Shown here: piece after piece, positions 4,843 to 14,566 of the stretch
Layout of the letters: each line of letters starts with the position of its first letter
How positions within the stretch are numbered: the stretch's first letter is position 1
Assembly (NCBI RefSeq): GCF_020215645.1
Contig: NZ_CP084058.1
Location: 2,790,001 to 2,854,000 of the forward strand
Direction of reading: 5' to 3'
DNA: 64,000 nucleotides
From: Nonomuraea gerenzanensis
GTDB taxonomy: Bacteria > Actinomycetota > Actinomycetes > Streptosporangiales > Streptosporangiaceae
The notes under the pieces: model-generated
What the model was told of the DNA's origin: nothing
What the model saw: the letters and a program-made list of their open reading frames with translations, nothing else
Databases searched by the model: none
Made by a program: the position numbers and the translations under genes

Positions 4843-5570
4843 GACAGCACGTCCGTGACCTGCGGGTACAGCCGCATGTACGCCTCACCCACGGTGTCGT
4901 GCGCCAGCCCCAGGTTCGGGCCCGCGTTGCGCTTGAGCTGCACGCCGCGGCGCTTGGCCAGGTCGGTGTAGTAGTCCCACATGTGCTGCTGGGCCGGCAG
5001 GCACTCCATCGCCTTGCGCTTCCTGTCGAACACCGGGGTGATGTCGAGCAGCACCTCCGGCTTGAAGTCGCACTGCTCGGGCTGGTGCGGCTCGAAGAAG
5101 AACACGGGGGGCGCGCCGAGCGGCTCGCCGGGCGCCTCGTAGCCGATCGCCTGCGCCAGCACGCGCGCCTGCAGCGCCATGCGCGCCGCGGCCGGGTGGT
5201 CGCCGTTGTACGGGTCGGCCAGAGTGTGCGTCAGCACCACGTCGGGCACCACGTCGCGGTAGACGCGGACCAGCCGGTCGACCAGCTCCTGGCTCTCCAC
5301 CAGGGGGTAGTCGCCCGCGTCGAGGAACTCGATCTCGGCGCCCAGCTCCGCGGCGGCGTGCTCGGCCTCCTCGCGCCGGATCGCCTTGATCTCCTCCAGC
5401 GTCCTGCCCGCGCGCCACGCCTTCGCGGACTCGCCGCGCTCGCCGTAGCTGAGGCACACCACCTTGGCGCGCTCGCCGCGGCTCGTGGCCAGGGCTATCG
5501 CGCCGCCCGCGCGCCAGACGAAGTCGCCGGCGTGAGCACTGATCACCAACAGGGTACGAGAAGAGGTCAT
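4839..5570 (-). CDS. PIG-L/LmbE-fold protein, likely 4-oxalomesaconate hydratase (GalB-like)
   Basis: This protein has 243 residues from the ATG that follows GAGGTGACC by about 10 bases; an in-frame GTG 12 bases upstream lacks a ribosome site. The usual PIG-L motif AHPDD is changed to SAHAGDF near the N-terminus. The second metal His is in NGDHPAAARMAL. Proteobacterial GalB is a PIG-L-fold hydratase rather than a deacetylase, and similar N-terminal wording (SAHxxDF) fits that branch from memory. It is the promoter-proximal gene of the aldolase-tautomerase-dioxygenase operon, which makes hydration of 4-oxalomesaconate to 4-carboxy-4-hydroxy-2-oxoadipate the best guess. Plain N-acetylglucosaminyl deacetylase activity is the alternative. 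Confidence 0.82.
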   Translation of the reverse strand: MTSSRTLLVISAHAGDFVWRAGGAIALATSRGERAKVVCLSYGERGESAKAWRAGRTLEEIKAIRREEAEHAAAELGAEIEFLDAGDYPLVESQELVDRLVRVYRDVVPDVVLTHTLADPYNGDHPAAARMALQARVLAQAIGYEAPGEPLGAPPVFFFEPHQPEQCDFKPEVLLDITPVFDRKRKAMECLPAQQHMWDYYTDLAKRRGVQLKRNAGPNLGLAHDTVGEAYMRLYPQVTDVLS

Positions 5571-6518: not shown

Positions 6519-7160
6519 TCAGTCCGGGGTCGCCTCCAGTGCCTTGGCGACGCTGCGCAGGTGCTGCTGCATGGCCGTCTGGGCCGCCTCCGGGTCGCGG
6601 GCCACGATGGCCGCCACGATCAGCTCGTGCTGCGGCAGCGACACCGCCGCCCGTCCCGGCTGCCTGGCCAGGCGGAACTTGTGCCGCACCACCTGCGCCC
6701 CGAGCCGCTCGATGATCGCCGCGGACGTCCGGTGCCCGGCGATGCGGCGGATGTCGGCGTGCAGTGCGGCGTTCAGCTCCGAATACCGGTCCAGGTCGTT
6801 GCGCTCCACCGCCGCCCGCATGCCGGCGACGGTCTCGCGCAGCTGTTCGGCCTGCTCGGGCGTCACCCGTTCCGCGGCCTTGGCGGCCGACAGGCCCTCC
6901 AGCACCATCCGCACCTCCGTGATCTCGATGGCCTCCGCCTTCGAGATCGCCCGGACACGGGCGCCCTTGTTGCGTAGGATCTCGACGAGCCCCTCCCCGG
7001 CGAGCTCCTTGAACGTCTCGCGCACCGCGGCCCGCGGGGCGCCGAACTGCTCGCACACGTCCGCTTCGACCAGCCGCTGGTTGGGCACGAAGTCGCCGCC
7101 GAGGATGGCCGCCCTGACCCGGTCGGTCAGCGTCTCCGCGTGCGGGGGCCCTGAGCTCAC
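6519..7160 (-). CDS. GntR-family regulator with FCD domain
   Basis: This 213-residue regulator starts at a GTG. The frame extends to a TTG at 7202, but the GTG at 7160 has an ideal GGAGGAGG site five bases upstream, and using it leaves the operator sequence in the leader. The N-terminal winged helix (LTDRVRAAILGGDFVPNQRL, then VCEQFGAPRAAVRETFKELAGEGLV) is typical. The C-terminal FCD domain retains candidate metal/ligand His residues in LHADIRRIAGH, PQHELIV and MQQHL. FCD regulators usually sense small carboxylates and repress adjacent catabolic genes. Sites matching its presumed operator occur in its own leader and in the divergent catabolic promoter, implying autoregulation. Confidence 0.88.
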   Translation of the reverse strand: MSSGPPHAETLTDRVRAAILGGDFVPNQRLVEADVCEQFGAPRAAVRETFKELAGEGLVEILRNKGARVRAISKAEAIEITEVRMVLEGLSAAKAAERVTPEQAEQLRETVAGMRAAVERNDLDRYSELNAALHADIRRIAGHRTSAAIIERLGAQVVRHKFRLARQPGRAAVSLPQHELIVAAIVARDPEAAQTAMQQHLRSVAKALEATPD

Positions 7161-7180
7161 GCGATCCTCCTCCGGTGTCT

Positions 7181-7203
7181 TGGTAGACAATATTATGGAC
7201 AAT
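7181..7203. promoter_or_regulatory. GntR autoregulatory operator candidate
   Basis: Read on the minus strand this segment carries ATTGTCCATA followed at once by ATATTGTCTACCA. TTGTCTACCA fits TNGT-N2-ACNA, the FadR/FCD operator rule, and ATTGTC recurs at 5612 and 5686. It lies 20-45 bases upstream of the preferred GTG start of the regulator. Seen: the repeats. Inferred: binding by this GntR protein. Confidence 0.55.
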
Positions 7204-7287
7204 CACCTCCGGATGGCGCGCGTCCCTGCCCGCCGGGCGCTTTGATCATTTGCCCCGGATCTGTCGGTGGGCTCCGGTAAGTTCCCG

Positions 7288-7367: not shown

Positions 7368-7859
7368 GTGGACGCGGACAGAACCGCGTGGGAGCGGCGC
7401 AGCGTGGTGCGGGTGGTGCCACCCGTGGAGCCACGCAAACTGGCGAAGGTGCCCTTCGTCGAGCTGGCCGACGGCCGGCTGCAGGGGGTCGTGTCGAGCG
7501 GATCCGACATCGAACGGGTCTACGTCTCCTCGATCACCGCGGGCACACACGCGCTGAGCTGCAGCACCAACAACAACCGGCCGTGCGGCGCGCTGCACGG
7601 CTACGCGTGCAAACACATCCGCATGCTGGCCGACGAGGCCGTCGTGCAGTACGGGCTGGACCGGGTGGCCCGCTACCTGCGGGTCGAGGTGCCCGAGGGC
7701 GGCCAGCTGATGCACGAGATCACGGGGCACGTCGAGCGCACCCCGGCGGCCGTGGTGTTCAGCCGGTTCCTGCGGCACCTGGCCTACCTGGAGGTGCCCG
7801 ACAGCAACGAGCCGATGGCCGAGCTGCACTGGTTCCCCGCGACGGGGGCGGTGCGCTGA
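7368..7859 (+). CDS. SWIM-like zinc-finger protein (YehQ N-terminal-like), first gene of MoxR operon
   Basis: This 163-residue protein begins at a GTG about 11 bases after GGGAGGT. A Cys/His cluster reads C65-x7-C73-x7-C81-K-H83 (around SCSTNNNRPC and YACKHI), resembling the SWIM pattern ending CxH, although the first CxC is C65-S-T here. SWIM motifs bind nucleic acid or protein. In E. coli the yehLMPQ cluster pairs a SWIM protein with a VWA protein, a MoxR ATPase and a large unknown, which is the gene content here. It probably supplies a recognition module to the complex. The fold call is moderate, the operon link strong. Confidence 0.7.
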   Translation: MDADRTAWERRSVVRVVPPVEPRKLAKVPFVELADGRLQGVVSSGSDIERVYVSSITAGTHALSCSTNNNRPCGALHGYACKHIRMLADEAVVQYGLDRVARYLRVEVPEGGQLMHEITGHVERTPAAVVFSRFLRHLAYLEVPDSNEPMAELHWFPATGAVR

Positions 7860-7896
7860 TGCCGATCACGTACGTCTCAGACAAGGCGGTGTGCTG

Positions 7897-9285
7897 ATGC
7901 TCGACGTACAGCTGAGCGAGCTGCTCGGCGACGCCCCCGAGGGGGTCGACCAGGCGCTCGACCTGGTGGCGGGCTTCGACGGCGCGCTCACCCTCGGGCT
8001 GGCCAGGCTCGGCGAGGAGCCCGCCGCGGCGCTGGCCGCCCTGGCGGGCGCGCTGGCCGGCAGCCCCCTCGGCGACCGGGTGGGCGAGGCGGTGGAGAAG
8101 GTGGCCGCGGGCTCCGTGGCCGACGAGCACCTCGCGGCGCTGGCCGGCGGCAGGGCCGCGCTGTTCGGCGCGGTGCACGACGCGCTGCTCGCCCGTCTCG
8201 ACGGGGCGCTGGGCCGCACGCGCGCCGCCTGGCAACCCGCCGAGAGCGAGCCGGAGGTGGCGGAGAACCTGCTGGCCGGCTGCCGGGTGTGGCTGCGCGA
8301 GCTGGCCATCGTCGGCTGGCGCGGGGTCGATCACGACCTGGTGTCCTCGGCCGACCAGACGATCGAGGCGCTGCTGGCCGTGCCCGAGCTGCGCGGGCTG
8401 GCGGTGCTGCTCGACGGGCTGGCGGCGGAGCTGCGGGCCTCCAGCCCGGTGGCCACGATGGAGCGGCTGCCCGCCCGCCGGTGGGCCGACCTGTGGACGC
8501 GGGCCATGCTGCTGGCGCAGCACGGGCCGTGGCACGGGGGCGGCGCCGAGCCGGTGTCGGGCCGGATGCTGATCCTGGGCGCCGACGTGCACGAGCACGC
8601 CACCGTCGTACGCGTCCAGATCCACGCCGTCCTGGAGCCGGCCGGCGGCGGGCCCGCCAGGCTGGTCCGCACGAGCATGGCGGCGGCCAAGGTCGACACC
8701 ATCGTCGGGCCCACCGTGTGGAAGCTGCTGCGCGACCAGCCGGTGCTGCTGTCCGCGCTGGCGCAGCACCGCAGCGTGGAGATCACCGACATGCCGCTGC
8801 TGCCCGGCGGCGACCTGGTGTGGGAGAACCACCGGGCCCGCGCGGGCGACGACGCCGACCCGTTCGCCACGGCCAGGCTGCAGCTCGCCGCCGCGACGCC
8901 GCCGGCGGTCACGCCGCTCGACCGGCATCCCGTCCGCATCGCCGAGCCCGTCTTCGTCGAGGCGTACAAGTGCGACGGGCAGACCATCGACCTGGGGGGC
9001 AACAAGCTCGCCCTCGACCTCGACCGGCTGCCGTCCGCCGGCCCGCTCACCCCGGGGCTGGTCAAGGCGTCCACGGCCTGCATCGGGCTGGTGCGCTGGG
9101 ACGGCGGGCAGTGGATGCTGCAGCCGCTCGCCGTCCAGGCGGCGGTCAAGAAGCAGCCCGTCGCCGCGCACAACGGCGACTGGGCCCTGGGCCCCACCGA
9201 CCCCAAGGTGGCCAAGGCCGAGACCAAGAACGGTGACGTGGTCGCGGTGCTGCGCGAGCGCGCGGGACGGCTGTTGCGGAAATGA
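7897..9285 (+). CDS. Uncharacterised 462-aa protein of the SWIM/VWA/MoxR operon
   Basis: I do not recognise a named domain. The ATG at 7897 overlaps the stop of a 12-codon frame and follows AAGGCGG by 7 bases; an in-frame GTG at 7891 is possible. The first about 190 residues are helical and Ala/Leu-rich (repeats of LAALAGAL and LARLDGAL type). The C-terminal half looks beta-rich with conserved-looking stretches such as RMLILGADVHEHATVVRVQ, KCDGQTIDLGG and LVRWDGGQWMLQPLAVQ. No signal peptide or membrane segment is seen. Its stop overlaps the VWA start (ATGA). By position it may be the remainder of a YehQ-like protein whose SWIM part is the separate upstream gene; that is inference. Confidence 0.75.
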   Translation: MLDVQLSELLGDAPEGVDQALDLVAGFDGALTLGLARLGEEPAAALAALAGALAGSPLGDRVGEAVEKVAAGSVADEHLAALAGGRAALFGAVHDALLARLDGALGRTRAAWQPAESEPEVAENLLAGCRVWLRELAIVGWRGVDHDLVSSADQTIEALLAVPELRGLAVLLDGLAAELRASSPVATMERLPARRWADLWTRAMLLAQHGPWHGGGAEPVSGRMLILGADVHEHATVVRVQIHAVLEPAGGGPARLVRTSMAAAKVDTIVGPTVWKLLRDQPVLLSALAQHRSVEITDMPLLPGGDLVWENHRARAGDDADPFATARLQLAAATPPAVTPLDRHPVRIAEPVFVEAYKCDGQTIDLGGNKLALDLDRLPSAGPLTPGLVKASTACIGLVRWDGGQWMLQPLAVQAAVKKQPVAAHNGDWALGPTDPKVAKAETKNGDVVAVLRERAGRLLRK

Positions 9286-10643
9286 CGGACATGACCGCCG
9301 ATACCACTGCCGGCCCGGTTACAGCCCCGGCCTCCGACACCGTGGGGCAGAGCGCCGACCAGACCCGGCGGCAGGTGCTCTACTGGCGCCTGATGTCGCG
9401 GCTGTTCAGCCCCGACGAGCAGCCCGCGCTGGAGACCGCCAGCCTGGGCATCGTCGGCGACCTCGACCTGCCGCTCGCGCTGCTCGACCCCGGGGTGTCG
9501 GTCGACAACCTGGTGCAGCGCTTCCCCGACCTGGCCGCCGAGTTCGACGGCCTGATGGCCGACAAGGAGCACGAGGCGGGCGACGAGGTGCGCCGCGCCG
9601 CCCTGGTCTCCAAGCTGCTGCTGAACGTGTTCGCGACCGGCTCGGGCAACGTCACCGCCGGCCAGCTGGAGAGCTGGAAGCAGGACGCGGCCTGGTTCGA
9701 GCGCGGCATGGGCTGCGAGCCGGGCGGCCTGCGCCACAGCCCCGGCAACGAGGAGCTGGCCAAGGTGCTCGCCGGCCTGGAGGGCGACCTGGTCAAGCGC
9801 ATGCACCTGCGCGAGGTGCTCGCCGACCCGGCCCTGGCCGCGCAGCTCACGCCCAGCATGTCGCTCATCGAGCAGCTCCTGCGCGACAAGTCGAACCTGT
9901 CGGGCGTGGCGCTGGCCAACGCCAAGGCGCTGATCCGCAAGTACGTCGACGAGGTCGCCGAGGTGCTGCGTACCCAGGTGGAGAAGACCAGCTCCGGCGT
10001 CATCGACCGGTCGGTGCCGCCCAAGCGGGTCTTTCGCAACCTCGACGTCGAGCGCACGATCTGGAAGAACCTCACCAACTGGAGCCCGGAAGACCAGCGG
10101 CTCTACGTGGACCGGCTCTACTACAAGCAGACGGCCCACCGCACCACCCCGGCCCGCCTGATCGTGGTCGTCGACCAGTCGGGCTCGATGACGGACTCGA
10201 TGGTCAACTGCACCATCCTGGCCTCCATCTTCGCCGGGCTGCCGAAGGTGGACGTGCACCTGATCGCCTACGACACCCGGGCGATCGACCTGACGCCGTG
10301 GGTGCACGACCCGTTCGAGGTGCTGATGCGCACCAACCTCGGCGGCGGCAACAACGGGCCGGTGGCGATGGCCATGGCCCGCCCGAAGATCAGCGACCCG
10401 CGCAACACCGTGATGGTGTGGATCTCCGACTTCTACGAGTTCGGCGCCTCCCAGCCGCTCTACGAGGGCATCGAGGCCGTCTACCGGTCGGGCGTGAAGT
10501 TCATCCCCGTCGGCTCGGTCAACAGCTCCGGCGTGCAGAGCGTCGATCCGTGGTTCCGCAAGAAATTCAAGGACCTGGGCACCCCCGTGATCTCGGGTCA
10601 CATCCACAAGCTCGTCTTCGAGCTCAAGAACTTCCTCACCTAG
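9282..10643 (+). CDS. VWA-domain protein (YehP/CoxE-like) of MoxR operon
   Basis: In this 453-residue protein, residues 1-290 form a helical region specific to this family. The C-terminal von Willebrand A domain has an intact MIDAS: DQSGS at 298-302, T351 in RTNLGGG, and D383 in WISDFYEFG. VWA proteins paired with MoxR ATPases act as metal-dependent adaptors that bring a client to the AAA ring, as in CoxE/CoxD, CbbO/CbbQ and ViaA/RavA. The start ATG overlaps the upstream stop, and the MoxR gene follows 11 bp after the stop, as expected for a two-part machine. It lacks a signal sequence, so it works in the cytoplasm. Confidence 0.9.
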   Translation: MTDMTADTTAGPVTAPASDTVGQSADQTRRQVLYWRLMSRLFSPDEQPALETASLGIVGDLDLPLALLDPGVSVDNLVQRFPDLAAEFDGLMADKEHEAGDEVRRAALVSKLLLNVFATGSGNVTAGQLESWKQDAAWFERGMGCEPGGLRHSPGNEELAKVLAGLEGDLVKRMHLREVLADPALAAQLTPSMSLIEQLLRDKSNLSGVALANAKALIRKYVDEVAEVLRTQVEKTSSGVIDRSVPPKRVFRNLDVERTIWKNLTNWSPEDQRLYVDRLYYKQTAHRTTPARLIVVVDQSGSMTDSMVNCTILASIFAGLPKVDVHLIAYDTRAIDLTPWVHDPFEVLMRTNLGGGNNGPVAMAMARPKISDPRNTVMVWISDFYEFGASQPLYEGIEAVYRSGVKFIPVGSVNSSGVQSVDPWFRKKFKDLGTPVISGHIHKLVFELKNFLT

Positions 10644-10654
10644 GAGACTGGCGA

Positions 10655-11770
10655 ATGAGTGACGACATGCTGCGCGCCCCCGCAGAGGTCAAGTACGCCG
10701 AGGAGCTCGACTACCTGGAGTCGATCGACGACGCGCCCAAGCCGTTCTCGTGGCGGCTCAGCCCGCGCATGATCCGGGTGTTCATCCTGGGCTCCGAGCG
10801 CTCCGACGGGATCGAGCGCGAGATCCCGCAGAAGTGGTTCGGCGACCGCAGTTTCGTCGAGCGCGCCATCGTGACGCTGGCCTCCGACCGGGGCCTGCTG
10901 CTGATCGGCGACCCGGGCACCGGCAAGAGCTGGCTGGCCGAGCTGCTCGCGGCGGCGATCTGCCGCAACTCCACCCTCGTGGTGCAGGGCACGGCGGGCA
11001 CCACCGAGGACCACATCAAGTACTCGTGGAACGTCTCCATGGTCATCGCCAAGGGGCAGTCCCGCGCGTCCATGATCCCCTCGCCGATCATGACGGCGAT
11101 GGAGCGCGGCGTGATCGGCCGCTTCGAGGAGCTGACCCGCTCCACCAGCGACGTGCAGGACGCGCTCATCTCGATCCTGTCGGAGAAGTACGTCTCCATC
11201 CCCGAGCTCGACGACGACAACATCGTCTTCGCCCAGCCCGGCTTCTCCATCATCGCCACCGCCAACAGCCGGGACCGGGGCGTCAACGACCTGTCCTCGG
11301 CGCTCAAGCGGCGCTTCAACTTCGTCCGCATCCCGGTCGTGACGAACAAGAAGAGCGAGGCGGAGATCGTCCGCTTCCGCACCGAGGAGCTGCTGCGCAG
11401 GCACCGGATCGAGCTGGACCTGCCGCCGACGCTGCTCGACATCCTGCTGCAGAGCTTCGCCGACCTGCGCTCGGCGGCGGCCTCGGCCACCAGCGACGAC
11501 GAGAAGCTGGAGTCGGCGCTGTCCACAGCCGAGCAGATCGGCGTGCTGGAGGACGCCATCCTGCACAGCCACTTCTTCGGCGACCGCGTGCTGCGCGCCC
11601 AGACGCTGGCCGGGTCGCTGGTCGGCTCGCTGGCCCGGCGCAGCCCCGAGGACCTGGCCATCCTCAACAAGTACTGGCACGGTGTCGTCGAGCCCCGCAG
11701 CAAGAAGCAGGGCGGGGAGTGGCCGGAGTTCCTCGAGGGCGGCCGCGAGGCCATCGCCACCCTGTCATGA
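10655..11770 (+). CDS. MoxR-family AAA+ ATPase (YehL-like)
   Basis: This ATPase has 371 residues from the ATG after TAGGAGACTGGCGA. Walker A is GDPGTGKS (85-92). The Walker B region reads GRFEELT (155-161), so the usual Asp-Glu is Glu-Glu; the presumed catalytic Glu is kept. Sensor 1 is ATANSRD (201-207) and the arginine finger region is KRRF (218-221). The DDHIKY/STSDVQDALISILSEK stretch is the MoxR helix-2 insert region. MoxR proteins are hexameric chaperone-like ATPases that activate or assemble metalloenzymes with VWA partners. The ATGA overlap with the DUF5682 gene indicates that the large downstream protein is a stoichiometric partner or client. Confidence 0.92.
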   Translation: MSDDMLRAPAEVKYAEELDYLESIDDAPKPFSWRLSPRMIRVFILGSERSDGIEREIPQKWFGDRSFVERAIVTLASDRGLLLIGDPGTGKSWLAELLAAAICRNSTLVVQGTAGTTEDHIKYSWNVSMVIAKGQSRASMIPSPIMTAMERGVIGRFEELTRSTSDVQDALISILSEKYVSIPELDDDNIVFAQPGFSIIATANSRDRGVNDLSSALKRRFNFVRIPVVTNKKSEAEIVRFRTEELLRRHRIELDLPPTLLDILLQSFADLRSAAASATSDDEKLESALSTAEQIGVLEDAILHSHFFGDRVLRAQTLAGSLVGSLARRSPEDLAILNKYWHGVVEPRSKKQGGEWPEFLEGGREAIATLS

Positions 11771-14526
11771 GCAGCCCGTTCAGTGCGCTGCGCGAGCAGC
11801 TCCTCGACGCCGCCGAGCAGTTCGCCGGCAGCCCCGTCGCCGTGTCCGGCATCCTGTCGGGCCTGGTGGAGGACGTGGACCGGGCGCTGCGCGAAGAGCT
11901 GGAGATCTTCCCCGTCTGCCACCACTCGCCGGCCTCCGCGCTGGCGATGGTGCGCAGGCTGCGCGAGAAGCAGCCGAAGGTCATCTACCTGGAGCTGTGC
12001 GAGGACCTCCAGCCGCTGCTGACCGAGCTGCGCAACTGCCGCCTGCCGGTGGCGCTGCAGGCGTTCGCGACGGACCTCGACGGCTTCCCCAAGGAGTCGG
12101 CGCCGCTCAGCGTGGTGGCGCCCATCACGGAGGCGTCGGCCGAGTACCAGGCCATCTCGTACGCGCTGGAGACCCCCGGCGTGGAGCTGGTGCTGGTGGA
12201 CCGCTCGACCGACCACGTCTTCCAGTGGGAGCCCAAGCAGGAGCAGCCCGCCACCCCGAAGGACGAGGAGGCGGCCCTGCACGGCGACGCCGTGGGCGTC
12301 GAGATCGGCGACCTGCGCCCCGGCTTCGCCGAGCTGGAGGAGCACCTGCTGCACCACGGCAAGGTGCGCCACTGGTCGGAGTGGTGGGACCAGTACGTCG
12401 AGCAGCCCCTGTCCGGCGCAGACTACGAGACCTACCGCCAGGTCATGGTGCTGATCGGCAGCCTGTTCCGCCGGCTGCGCCCCGACAGCGGCCGGCTGAC
12501 CATGGACGAGGAGCGCGAGCGCTACATGTGGACCAGGATGCGCGAGCACCTGGCCGCCTCCGGCGCCGACCCGGCCGACTGCCTGTACGTGTGCGGCGCC
12601 TTCCACGCCGCCAGCCACGTCGAGCAGTTCGGCCTCGGCTCCACGGCGCCCTACGAGATCAGCCCGCGCACCGGCACGAAATGGCTGTACGGCCTCATCC
12701 CGTCCAGCTACTCCGCCATCGAGGCGCAGTTCGGGCTGGCCTCCGGCTCGGTGTCGATCGCGGCGGCGACCTGGACCAAGGCGCTCACCCGCAACAAACT
12801 GACCCCGTTCCAGCTCGAAGGGCAGAAGGGCACGCGCAAGCGCGCGGCCAAGCTGCCCGCGCCCGCCGCGCCGCAGGCGGAGGTGTCCGACAAGCTGACC
12901 GGGTTCCTGTCCAGGCCGCCGGCGCTGGACCCGCTCGACGACGCCGAGCTGGTCGGCTGGTCGGTGGACATCGTCCGGCTGGCCCGGCGCAACGGCTACC
13001 TGGCCAGCACCGCCGACGCGATCGCGGTCTACGAGACCTCGATCCTGCTGGCCGGCATGCGCAACCGCGCCAGGCCCACCCCGTACGACTTCCAGGACGC
13101 CGCCGTCACGTGCATCGAGAAGGACGCGGTGCCGGGCAGGCGCGACATCCGGCGGCTGTGCGAGATCCTGCTCGGCGGCGACCGCGTCGGCGAGGTCGGC
13201 TACGACGCGATGCCCCCGCTGGCCAGGAACGTCTACGACCGGCTCAAGCCGCTCGGGCTGGACCTGGAGAAGCGGACGATCCAGCGGGCGCTGCTCGACC
13301 TGAACGCCGAGCCCGAGCTGGTGCCCTGCTCCGACCTGCTGTGGATGCTGCGGTACCTGCTGCCGTCCGACGCGGTGCGGCCCATCATGGGCGAGCGCAG
13401 GCTGGGCGAGCGCTCCATCCAGGAGAGCTGGGACCTGGCGTTCGGCAAGCACCAGCGCTCGATCATCGAGCTGGGCTACGAGGGCGTCACCATCGAGCAG
13501 GTGCTGGAGCAGCGGCTGCGGCGCTCGGTGCACGACCCCAAGGCCACGGCGGCGGTCGCGCTGGCGGCGGTCGAGGACTCCATCCTGTTCCTCGGCAGCC
13601 GGCGCTTCGCCGACGAGCTGGGGGCGCGGGCGGTGGAGCTGCTGTCCGCCGAGCGCACCGTGGACGACGCGCCCGAGGTGCTGCGCCGCATCCGGCGGCT
13701 GCTCGCCTACTACCGGGCCAACGAGCCGGAGCTGCCCGCCTGGTGCGAGTCGTTCGTGACGACCGGGTACGCGCACTACTGCACGCTGCTGCCGACGGCC
13801 TTCGTGGACGGCGACACCGGCGTGCGGCAGGTGGCGGCCATGCTGGGCTTCCTGTTCACGATGGAGAGCCTGGCGCTGGCGCTCGGTTGCGACCGGGCGC
13901 AGCTCGAGCTGGCGGTGCAGCAGTCACACCCGGAGGCGCCCGACAAGGTGGCGCTGCTGTGGGCGGCCCACCACCAGCTCGGCCTGCTGCCGATCGCCGA
14001 CCTGCGGGCCCGCTGCGACGAGCTGCTCGCCAACCCGCTGGTCGTCCCGTCCTTCCCGCTGTACATCATGGGGTTCGTGCAGGCCATGGAGCCCGCTCCC
14101 GGGTTGTCGGGGTTCGTGGTGGAGGTGATCTCGAAGGCGTTCGGGCGGCTGCCCGACAACGTGCTGCTGCCGTGGCTGCCCAAACTGATCACCACGCTGC
14201 GCGACGGGGCGGCGGAGCTGGTGCCGGTGCTCATCCGGGAGGCCGGGCGCACGTTCCCCGGCTCGCTGACGGCCGTGGACTCCTGGGTGCCGCCGTGGAC
14301 GCCCCGGCCCAAGCCCGCCACCGTCACGTCCGCTCCTGTGGCCGCCGGGCCGGTGGCGTCGCTGCTCAGGGCGCATCCGGACACGTGCGACGCGGTGGCG
14401 GGGGTGCTCGGGTGCGAGGGTGAGTGGAGTGTGGCCGGCGCCGGGGAGAACCCGCATCGGGAGGTGAGCGCCCTGCTGGCCGAGCATCCGGAGCCGGTGC
14501 TGGCGGTGGCGGGCCTGTTCCGCTGA
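11767..14526 (+). CDS. DUF5682-family 919-aa protein (YehM-like), terminal gene of MoxR operon
   Basis: This is a large cytoplasmic protein of unknown function. The N-terminal about 290 residues carry FPVCHHSPASA (CHHSP 51-55), YLELCEDL (74-81), VELVLVDRS, DEERERYMWTRM (248-258) and CGAFHAASH (276-284). The order of an early HHxP, an ERxxxM and a late GAxHxxxH resembles the TraB/EreA/ChaN (TIKI-like) hydrolase superfamily; that fold comparison is mine from memory. The remaining 600 residues are largely helical with several Leu-rich repeats-like stretches and no clear domain. It is coupled to the MoxR ATPase by ATGA and followed by a strong hairpin terminator, so it ends the operon. It is either the client remodelled by the MoxR/VWA pair or the effector of the system. 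Confidence 0.82.
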   Translation: MSSPFSALREQLLDAAEQFAGSPVAVSGILSGLVEDVDRALREELEIFPVCHHSPASALAMVRRLREKQPKVIYLELCEDLQPLLTELRNCRLPVALQAFATDLDGFPKESAPLSVVAPITEASAEYQAISYALETPGVELVLVDRSTDHVFQWEPKQEQPATPKDEEAALHGDAVGVEIGDLRPGFAELEEHLLHHGKVRHWSEWWDQYVEQPLSGADYETYRQVMVLIGSLFRRLRPDSGRLTMDEERERYMWTRMREHLAASGADPADCLYVCGAFHAASHVEQFGLGSTAPYEISPRTGTKWLYGLIPSSYSAIEAQFGLASGSVSIAAATWTKALTRNKLTPFQLEGQKGTRKRAAKLPAPAAPQAEVSDKLTGFLSRPPALDPLDDAELVGWSVDIVRLARRNGYLASTADAIAVYETSILLAGMRNRARPTPYDFQDAAVTCIEKDAVPGRRDIRRLCEILLGGDRVGEVGYDAMPPLARNVYDRLKPLGLDLEKRTIQRALLDLNAEPELVPCSDLLWMLRYLLPSDAVRPIMGERRLGERSIQESWDLAFGKHQRSIIELGYEGVTIEQVLEQRLRRSVHDPKATAAVALAAVEDSILFLGSRRFADELGARAVELLSAERTVDDAPEVLRRIRRLLAYYRANEPELPAWCESFVTTGYAHYCTLLPTAFVDGDTGVRQVAAMLGFLFTMESLALALGCDRAQLELAVQQSHPEAPDKVALLWAAHHQLGLLPIADLRARCDELLANPLVVPSFPLYIMGFVQAMEPAPGLSGFVVEVISKAFGRLPDNVLLPWLPKLITTLRDGAAELVPVLIREAGRTFPGSLTAVDSWVPPWTPRPKPATVTSAPVAAGPVASLLRAHPDTCDAVAGVLGCEGEWSVAGAGENPHREVSALLAEHPEPVLAVAGLFR

Positions 14527-14530
14527 GTGC

Positions 14531-14566
14531 GCCACCGGTCGGGTCACCCGTGGCCCGACCGGTGGC
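14531..14566 (+). terminator. Hairpin terminator of the MoxR operon
   Basis: A perfect 13-bp stem (GCCACCGGTCGGG at 14531-14543 with CCCGACCGGTGGC at 14554-14566) encloses a 10-base loop, 4 bases after the DUF5682 stop. There is no T-tract, as is common in actinomycetes. The hairpin also lies beyond the convergent alpha/beta hydrolase stop at 14642 and could serve both strands. Confidence 0.85.

Follow-up and report, generated by a model that had tools for sequence, protein, structure and literature searches.

Pairs of a MoxR-type AAA+ ATPase and a VWA protein occur in several described systems, among them NorQ/NorD, CoxD/CoxE and RavA/ViaA. Several MoxR-VWA pairs are reported to insert metals or metal clusters, and vWA-MoxR ternary systems have been described in multicellular bacteria (PMC7159879); for NorQD, metal insertion by a twisting mechanism has been reported (PMC13036017), and the Pseudomonas aeruginosa region PA4317-23 holds a MoxR-like ATPase together with a VWF-domain protein (PMC8926400). 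Among the seven named MoxR subfamilies is YehL (PMC3893208), and the literature that we searched makes only passing mention of yehL, yehM, yehP and yehQ and gives them no established function. Here we analyzed a five-gene cassette of this kind in Nonomuraea gerenzanensis, which lies in a stretch of 64,000 nucleotides (contig NZ_CP084058.1, positions 2,790,001 to 2,854,000; hereafter the window) and encodes, in this order, a SWIM-like zinc finger protein, a second protein without a known family, a CoxE-type VWA protein, a MoxR ATPase and a DUF5682 protein. The cassette is preceded by a predicted DNA-damage promoter box. The window matches record NZ_LT559118 at 100%.

The window cassette shares the MoxR-VWA pair with NorQ/NorD, CoxD/CoxE and RavA/ViaA and differs from them in adding DUF5682 and two further proteins and in carrying Asn for Thr in the metal ion-dependent adhesion site (MIDAS) of its VWA protein. 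Like the vWA-MoxR ternary systems, it joins the pair to a dedicated third protein; however, this protein is DUF5682 and not VMAP, iSTAND, FtsH or a beta-propeller, and the make-up of the cassette is constant over the loci that we compared. The original prediction, made from the sequence alone, had recognized the MoxR-VWA pair, which the Pfam matches bear out (Table 1), and had proposed an undescribed system, in keeping with our finding no paper on DUF5682, or on the DUF5691 family of a related cluster, in the literature searched. The MoxR-VWA pair is of a known kind, the make-up of the cassette (class III below) is new, and its regulation is the new point that can be tested.

Using tblastn with the five proteins, we compiled 80 named loci, which ranked best among the 537 that encode a relative, and all five genes were found on the same strand and in the same order in 77 of them, representing 19 genera. 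The LexA-independent mycobacterial consensus is given as tTGTCRgtg, 8 nucleotides and TannnT, and the P1-driven induction of recA is described as needing PafBC (PMC5656591). The box before the window cassette departs from this consensus at one of 12 positions, the lower-case first t. In an unbiased count over the upstream regions of the window and the 77 loci, TTTTGTCG was the top 8-mer, present in 23 of 78 regions with 0.7 expected. We then scanned 200 base pairs (bp) upstream of each cassette, taking first-order Markov shuffles as the expectation. The best box had no mismatch in 2 of the 78 regions, one in 20, two in 14 and more in 42; a box with at most one mismatch was thus present in 22 regions and one with at most two in 36, where the shuffles gave 0.0 and 0.3. 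With the same limit of two mismatches, control scans found the box in 2 of 75 downstream regions and on the reverse strand of 2 of 78. In the whole DNA of these loci, 21 sites within one mismatch fell in the upstream regions, and the remaining 3.13 Mb of strand held 2, the corresponding numbers for exactly two mismatches being 14 and 71, and the pattern read backward had no site within one mismatch.

A reduced core, TGTCR-N11-TANNN[TC], a relaxation chosen after the sites had been viewed, occurred in 51 of 77 upstream regions (0.3 expected), and either the core or a box with at most two mismatches was present in at least one locus of 15 of the 19 genera. Perfect boxes beginning with T precede the cassettes in Sphaerisporangium and Nocardia, and in a cassette on a Streptomyces plasmid (L026) the first gene starts 44 bp downstream of an exact box at 5448. 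The 35 boxes with at most two mismatches in the 77 loci begin with C (22), T (12) or A (1); Nonomuraea contributes 22 of the 35, and loci of the same genus are not independent. We conclude from these comparisons that the window operon carries, as judged by sequence, a PafBC-type DNA-damage promoter box that is conserved across genera. With the box conserved, the output of the machine, which had been called unknown, may be narrowed down. We found no report linking DUF5682 clusters to DNA damage, in a search that covered the PafBC literature only lightly, so that such a report may exist.

In the host genome, we allowed T or C at the first base of the box, a choice made after the window site was viewed. 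The perfect pattern then had 20 sites and its reversed form none, and at 18 of the 20 an open reading frame (ORF) starts inside the site or within 97 bp after it. The 13 T-first sites precede genes for RecA, a UvrD helicase, an SbcD-type nuclease, an NAD-dependent DNA ligase, a ResIII/DEAD helicase, a macro-domain protein, two WYL regulators (one with a PafC-type helix-turn-helix), an ATPase that we take to be RadA-like and three family-less products, and one has no ORF. The 7 C-first sites precede the first window gene, an integrase, a LacI regulator and three family-less products, again with one lacking an ORF. The host also encodes a strong PafC. With one mismatch permitted, there were 67 sites (13 perfect and 54 with one mismatch), compared with 10 for the reversed-pattern control. 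The host evidence taken by itself is plausible yet not decisive, and the case therefore rests on conservation across genera. Separately, two similar-looking proteins of 507 and 487 amino acids (aa) without a Pfam family follow perfect boxes at 5.32 Mb (L224:1501-3021) and 6.32 Mb (L226:1563-3023) and are candidate damage-response genes, and at 7.27 Mb the macro-domain protein (L227:1566-2234) lies 43 bp past a perfect box.

The host holds three DUF5682-MoxR-VWA clusters, and together with related genomes they fall into four classes. Class I (L014, 9.69 Mb) has the order DUF4132-MoxR-DUF5682-VWA-SWIM, and its proteins share 64%, 36%, 59% and 24% identity with YehL, YehM, YehP and YehQ in the same order; by this comparison, class I is the true yehLMPQ counterpart in the host. 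Class II (L013, 8.66 Mb) runs SWIM-DUF5691-MoxR-DUF5682-VWA, and each of the 24 DUF5691 genes that pass the cut-off in 41 related genomes adjoins a DUF5682 gene, whereas one weaker match, under the cut-off, lacks such a neighbor. The window cluster (SWIM-x-VWA-MoxR-DUF5682) represents class III. Class IV comprises L250, with the order DUF4132-(1606 aa, family-less)-MoxR-DUF5682-VWA, and L251. MoxR, VWA and DUF5682 form the core common to all classes, and a SWIM-type protein is also present in classes I to III; the two class IV loci yielded none.

The window cluster and yehLMPQ each contain a MoxR ATPase, a CoxE-type VWA protein and DUF5682 in a single gene run, together with a protein that is of SWIM type in E. 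coli and SWIM-like in the window. The window cluster differs in gene order, since the YehL-type order MoxR-DUF5682-VWA-SWIM is that of the 9.69-Mb cluster, and in its low identities to the E. coli proteins (MoxR 41% over 341 aa, E 2e-74; VWA 33%; DUF5682 22%); neither its SWIM-like protein nor its second protein can be aligned, both having no tblastn match at the E. coli locus. The hhalign probability of the SWIM-like protein with YehQ was below 2, the finger nonetheless aligning, and that of the second protein, considered as a split-off C-terminal part of YehQ, was 0.1-1.3, or 0.65 with a deeper YehQ alignment. That the second protein might be a form of DUF5691 was rejected at an hhalign probability of 0.7, and no fusion of the SWIM-like and second proteins was found in the 77 loci. 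Class II has the same four core families as the window, strong PF18934 matches and, in genus g16, DNA-damage boxes of its own, but it has DUF5691 in place of the 462-aa protein, a large SWIM protein and another order. The proposed kinship with yehLMPQ thus stands, whereas the actinobacterial counterpart is the far closer class I cluster of the same genome, and the window cluster is, on these alignments, a distant third class of DUF5682 machine.

The box also precedes the other classes. In class I, each of the 7 clusters (L014, L235-L240) has a box with at most two mismatches, which points in the direction of the operon and lies ahead of the region of the DUF4132 gene that aligns; the box of L240 (genus g16) is exact, those of L235 and L236 have one mismatch and the other four have two. 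The gene start is unsure in L238 and L239, where the longest ORF covers the box, and in L235 and L240 the first gene encodes WGR-DUF4132. Two class II clusters, L248 and L249 of genus g16, are split into divergent SWIM-DUF5691 and MoxR-DUF5682-VWA halves, and both loci have one box per direction, one exact and one with a single mismatch. In the same-genus class II clusters, a box lies over the apparent SWIM start codon in 7 of 8 (L245 has none), and in all 7 (L013, L241-L244, L246, L247) a GTG follows 7 nucleotides after the -10 element of the box. This arrangement suggests a leaderless mRNA with a misplaced start, a conserved coding sequence being the alternative. In class IV, both loci carry a box, one of them with one mismatch and the other exact, where the gene run begins, about 6 kb upstream of MoxR.

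In E. coli, the 1 kb upstream of yehL contains no LexA core within one mismatch. A LexA-like core with one mismatch (L025:4450-4465) starts 25 bp before yehF, a WGR gene upstream of yehLMPQ; there are 11 LexA-like matches within one mismatch in the 30-kb E. coli stretch, and the yehF match is within the chance rate. A link to Mo-hydroxylases through E. coli molR was set aside, as it amounted to a neighborhood hint and remarks in the literature. MolR is described as LexA-regulated, and the WGR and DUF4132 genes of Deinococcus are described as rising upon depletion of the repressor DdrO (PMC8533742).

The hydrolase-like motifs noted earlier in the DUF5682 protein proved to be conserved without exception, H52, H53, E76, R250, E251, G277 and H280 being invariant in all 59 DUF5682 sequences. 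TIKI/TraB, ChaN and erythromycin-esterase (Ere) proteins have two G-x2-H-like motifs, a Glu after the first and R[ED]xxM before the second. DUF5682 matches this set with the first-motif His (H52/H53), E76 about 25 residues on and G277xxH280, and a His-Glu pair is described as essential (PMC6254334). DUF5682 differs in the Pro that stands for Gly in the first motif of class III (39 of 39), in an extra His and in a repeat scaffold of about 500 residues, and it has no significant sequence match to these families. The 2His/2Glu set includes a Glu two positions ahead of the first His; in DUF5682 that place (residue 51) is taken by Cys in class III and by Arg in the others, and YbaP of the TraB family likewise lacks this Glu. 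In Foldseek, the whole DUF5682 model had no match at E <= 0.001, and most VIA rows fell on the helical repeat; among 50 structure rows, that of ChaN (2g5g) alone was limited to the N domain, with a modest fold match. Sequence comparison with solved structures found no match, and profile comparison gave weak coiled or helical lines only. The TraB family was found in 0 of 118 genomes of the class and the ChaN family, weakly, in 1 of 246 genomes of the phylum. Because no close donor family was at hand, Ere-family ORFs were used for profile comparison with DUF5682, and their support was weak. DUF5682 may thus combine a predicted metal-dependent hydrolase domain of the TIKI/TraB/ChaN type with a helical-repeat scaffold.

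The five genes form one self-contained operon in Nonomuraea gerenzanensis. The single operon on the plus strand that had been proposed is present with all its ORFs, and the neighborhood survey showed the block to be co-conserved: the three exceptions among the 80 loci (L066, L093, L099) lack upstream genes where contigs end, and all 77 untruncated loci are complete. Around these 77 loci, flanking families called with a crude custom gene finder included none common to more than 4 of the 19 genera; six were common to 3 or 4 genera, all on mixed strands. With no neighboring metalloenzyme client among these families, DUF5682 itself could be the client of the MoxR-VWA pair. Median identity over the 80 loci was 91% for MoxR (range 86-98), 77% for VWA, 76% for DUF5682, 73% for the SWIM-like protein and 67% for the second protein. 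A class-wide sample had a DUF5682 relative in 20 of 246 genomes, one of them weak, and 24 of 25 same-genus genomes had the class III type. In the plasmid collection five records matched, four of them Streptomyces or Embleya replicons and the fifth an 11.85-Mb host record labelled as a plasmid. A single-protein search, which reaches close relatives only, had no match among viral contigs, and an unannotated, unverified phage scaffold from human faeces (L027:1453-2199) gave one weak DUF5682-like match (24%, E 2e-5); a phage origin of the cassette was rejected.

The features of the cassette are listed in Table 1. The ATGA overlaps at two junctions are 4 bp long (9282-9285 and 11767-11770), and the other junctions are gaps of 11 and 37 bp, the latter 31 bp if gene 2 starts at an alternative GTG at 7891. 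For genes 1 and 2, no match to a Pfam, NCBIfam or PADLOC family passes a cut-off; gene 1 has a single Pfam line below it (E 0.29). The finger described earlier as SWIM is a Cys/His finger of a variant form, C-x7-C...C-x-H, which is present in 77 of 77 loci and which the Pfam SWIM model does not match. Of the MIDAS, which had been thought intact, DQSGSM (79 of 79 loci) and WISDF are in place, and the Thr of GGGT is Asn in the window; over the loci this residue is Asn in 35 of 79, Thr in 41 and unresolved in 3. The MoxR motifs are kept in 79 of 80 loci, with a Walker B motif that ends in EE and not, as had been stated, in DE. A closing hairpin is present as proposed, with a stem of 16 bp instead of 13 and no U run, and is likely the transcription end. 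A sigma-70 scan found no promoter. The divergent ORF at 6519-7202 on the minus strand presumably encodes a GntR-type regulator, and the DNA-damage box lies between it and the cassette.

Table 1. Features of the five-gene cassette, in window coordinates.
Feature	Coordinates	Strand	Details
PafBC / recA-P1-type box, CTGTCGGTG-N8-TAAGTT	7261..7283	+	84 bp before first start codon
SWIM-like zinc finger protein, 163 aa, GTG start	7368..7859	+	C65-x7-C73...C81-x-H83
Family-less protein, 462 aa	7897..9285	+	Helical N half 1-210; beta-rich domain 213-416 resembling tandem OB folds
CoxE-type VWA protein, 453 aa	9282..10643	+	Pfam VWA_CoxE 6e-28; DQSGSM, GGGNN, WISDF
MoxR AAA+ ATPase, 371 aa	10655..11770	+	Pfam AAA_5 3e-36; GDPGTGKS / FEEL / ATANSRDRG / LKRRF
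DUF5682 protein, 919 aa	11767..14526	+	Pfam DUF5682 (PF18934) 4e-34, 118 bits, cut-off 26
Putative TIKI/ChaN-like hydrolase domain of DUF5682 protein			Residues ~40-345; helical-repeat scaffold ~380-840
Hairpin, 16-bp stem, without U run	14531..14566	+	After last stop codon; z -4.1 vs shuffles

Taken together, we favor, at a probability of about 0.5, a MoxR-VWA machine induced by DNA damage, which has the putative DUF5682 hydrolase as its target or partner, the induction being predicted. DNA damage would lead through PafBC-type activation to transcription of all five genes. The zinc-finger and OB-like proteins would recruit the machine to a site that may be single-stranded DNA; there, VWA would bind a target peptide and the MoxR hexamer would pull or twist it, by analogy with NorQD. 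DUF5682, which we regard as the dedicated partner because it is found in every class, would thereby be activated, loaded with metal or fed with substrate, and the output would serve survival of DNA damage. In a more specific form, which we consider quite improbable, yehLMPQ would be one branch of a dedicated, DNA-damage-inducible AAA+-hydrolase machine of bacteria, a counterpart of the p97-SPRTN system with which eukaryotes remove DNA-protein crosslinks: the SWIM and OB-like proteins would find DNA that is damaged or blocked by a protein, MoxR-VWA would unfold that protein and the TIKI-type domain of DUF5682 would cut it.

A possible but doubtful alternative is that MoxR and VWA are a metal-loading chaperone that does nothing more than open DUF5682 and insert the metal, after which DUF5682 alone would hydrolyze a small molecule or peptide that accumulates upon damage. 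The action of NorQ/NorD on nitric oxide reductase is a precedent (PMC13036017), as are the other metal-inserting pairs; the conserved His/Glu set of DUF5682 suits metal binding, and yehM is reported as mutated in copper-evolved E. coli (PMC12409786). However, the long helical repeat and two further constant proteins exceed the needs of a simple maturation pair.

It is unlikely that the cassette is a conflict system, that is, a damage-triggered defense or abortive infection in which MoxR-VWA acts as a threshold switch and DUF5682 as the effector. WYL regulators, two of which follow host boxes, reportedly co-localize with phage defense (PMC9122601); the vWA-MoxR ternary systems are a described parallel, and PADLOC gave weak lines for MoxR (mad8, E 1e-5) and VWA (TerY, E 2e-4), which generic AAA+/VWA similarity could explain. 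Against this, there is no variable effector, the five genes being constant in every untruncated locus, and the Pfam scan of the five proteins found no VMAP, iSTAND or FtsH partner, the bpMoxR line for MoxR (E 0.045) being below the cut-off. The close identity of MoxR, the near-constant presence of class III within the genus and a box type common to recA, uvrD and ligA also argue against a conflict system.

Several observations weigh against the damage-induced machine. The window box is one of the 54 one-mismatch host sites, no repair gene lies behind any of the 7 C-first host sites, to which it belongs, and there is neither core nor box before the cassettes of Micromonospora (5 loci), Microtetraspora (4), Virgisporangium (2) and Spongiactinospora (1); within the genus, 4 of 6 class I boxes have two mismatches, and induction of the operon is a prediction from the box. 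These points would suit a housekeeping chaperone operon whose box is a coincidence or the site of another regulator, a reading that is very improbable given the scarcity of boxes outside the upstream regions, the box carried by each of the separate classes, and the T-first boxes without a mismatch that occur in Sphaerisporangium, in Nocardia and before the Streptomyces plasmid cassette.

The presence of a box of the recA/uvrD/sbcD/ligA type before several classes makes yehLMPQ-type machines testable in the DNA-damage response. If the damage-induced machine is real, the YehL branch of the MoxR ATPases would join DNA repair or damage tolerance, DUF5682 would gain an active site that can be tested, and several nameless proteins would become candidate repair factors.

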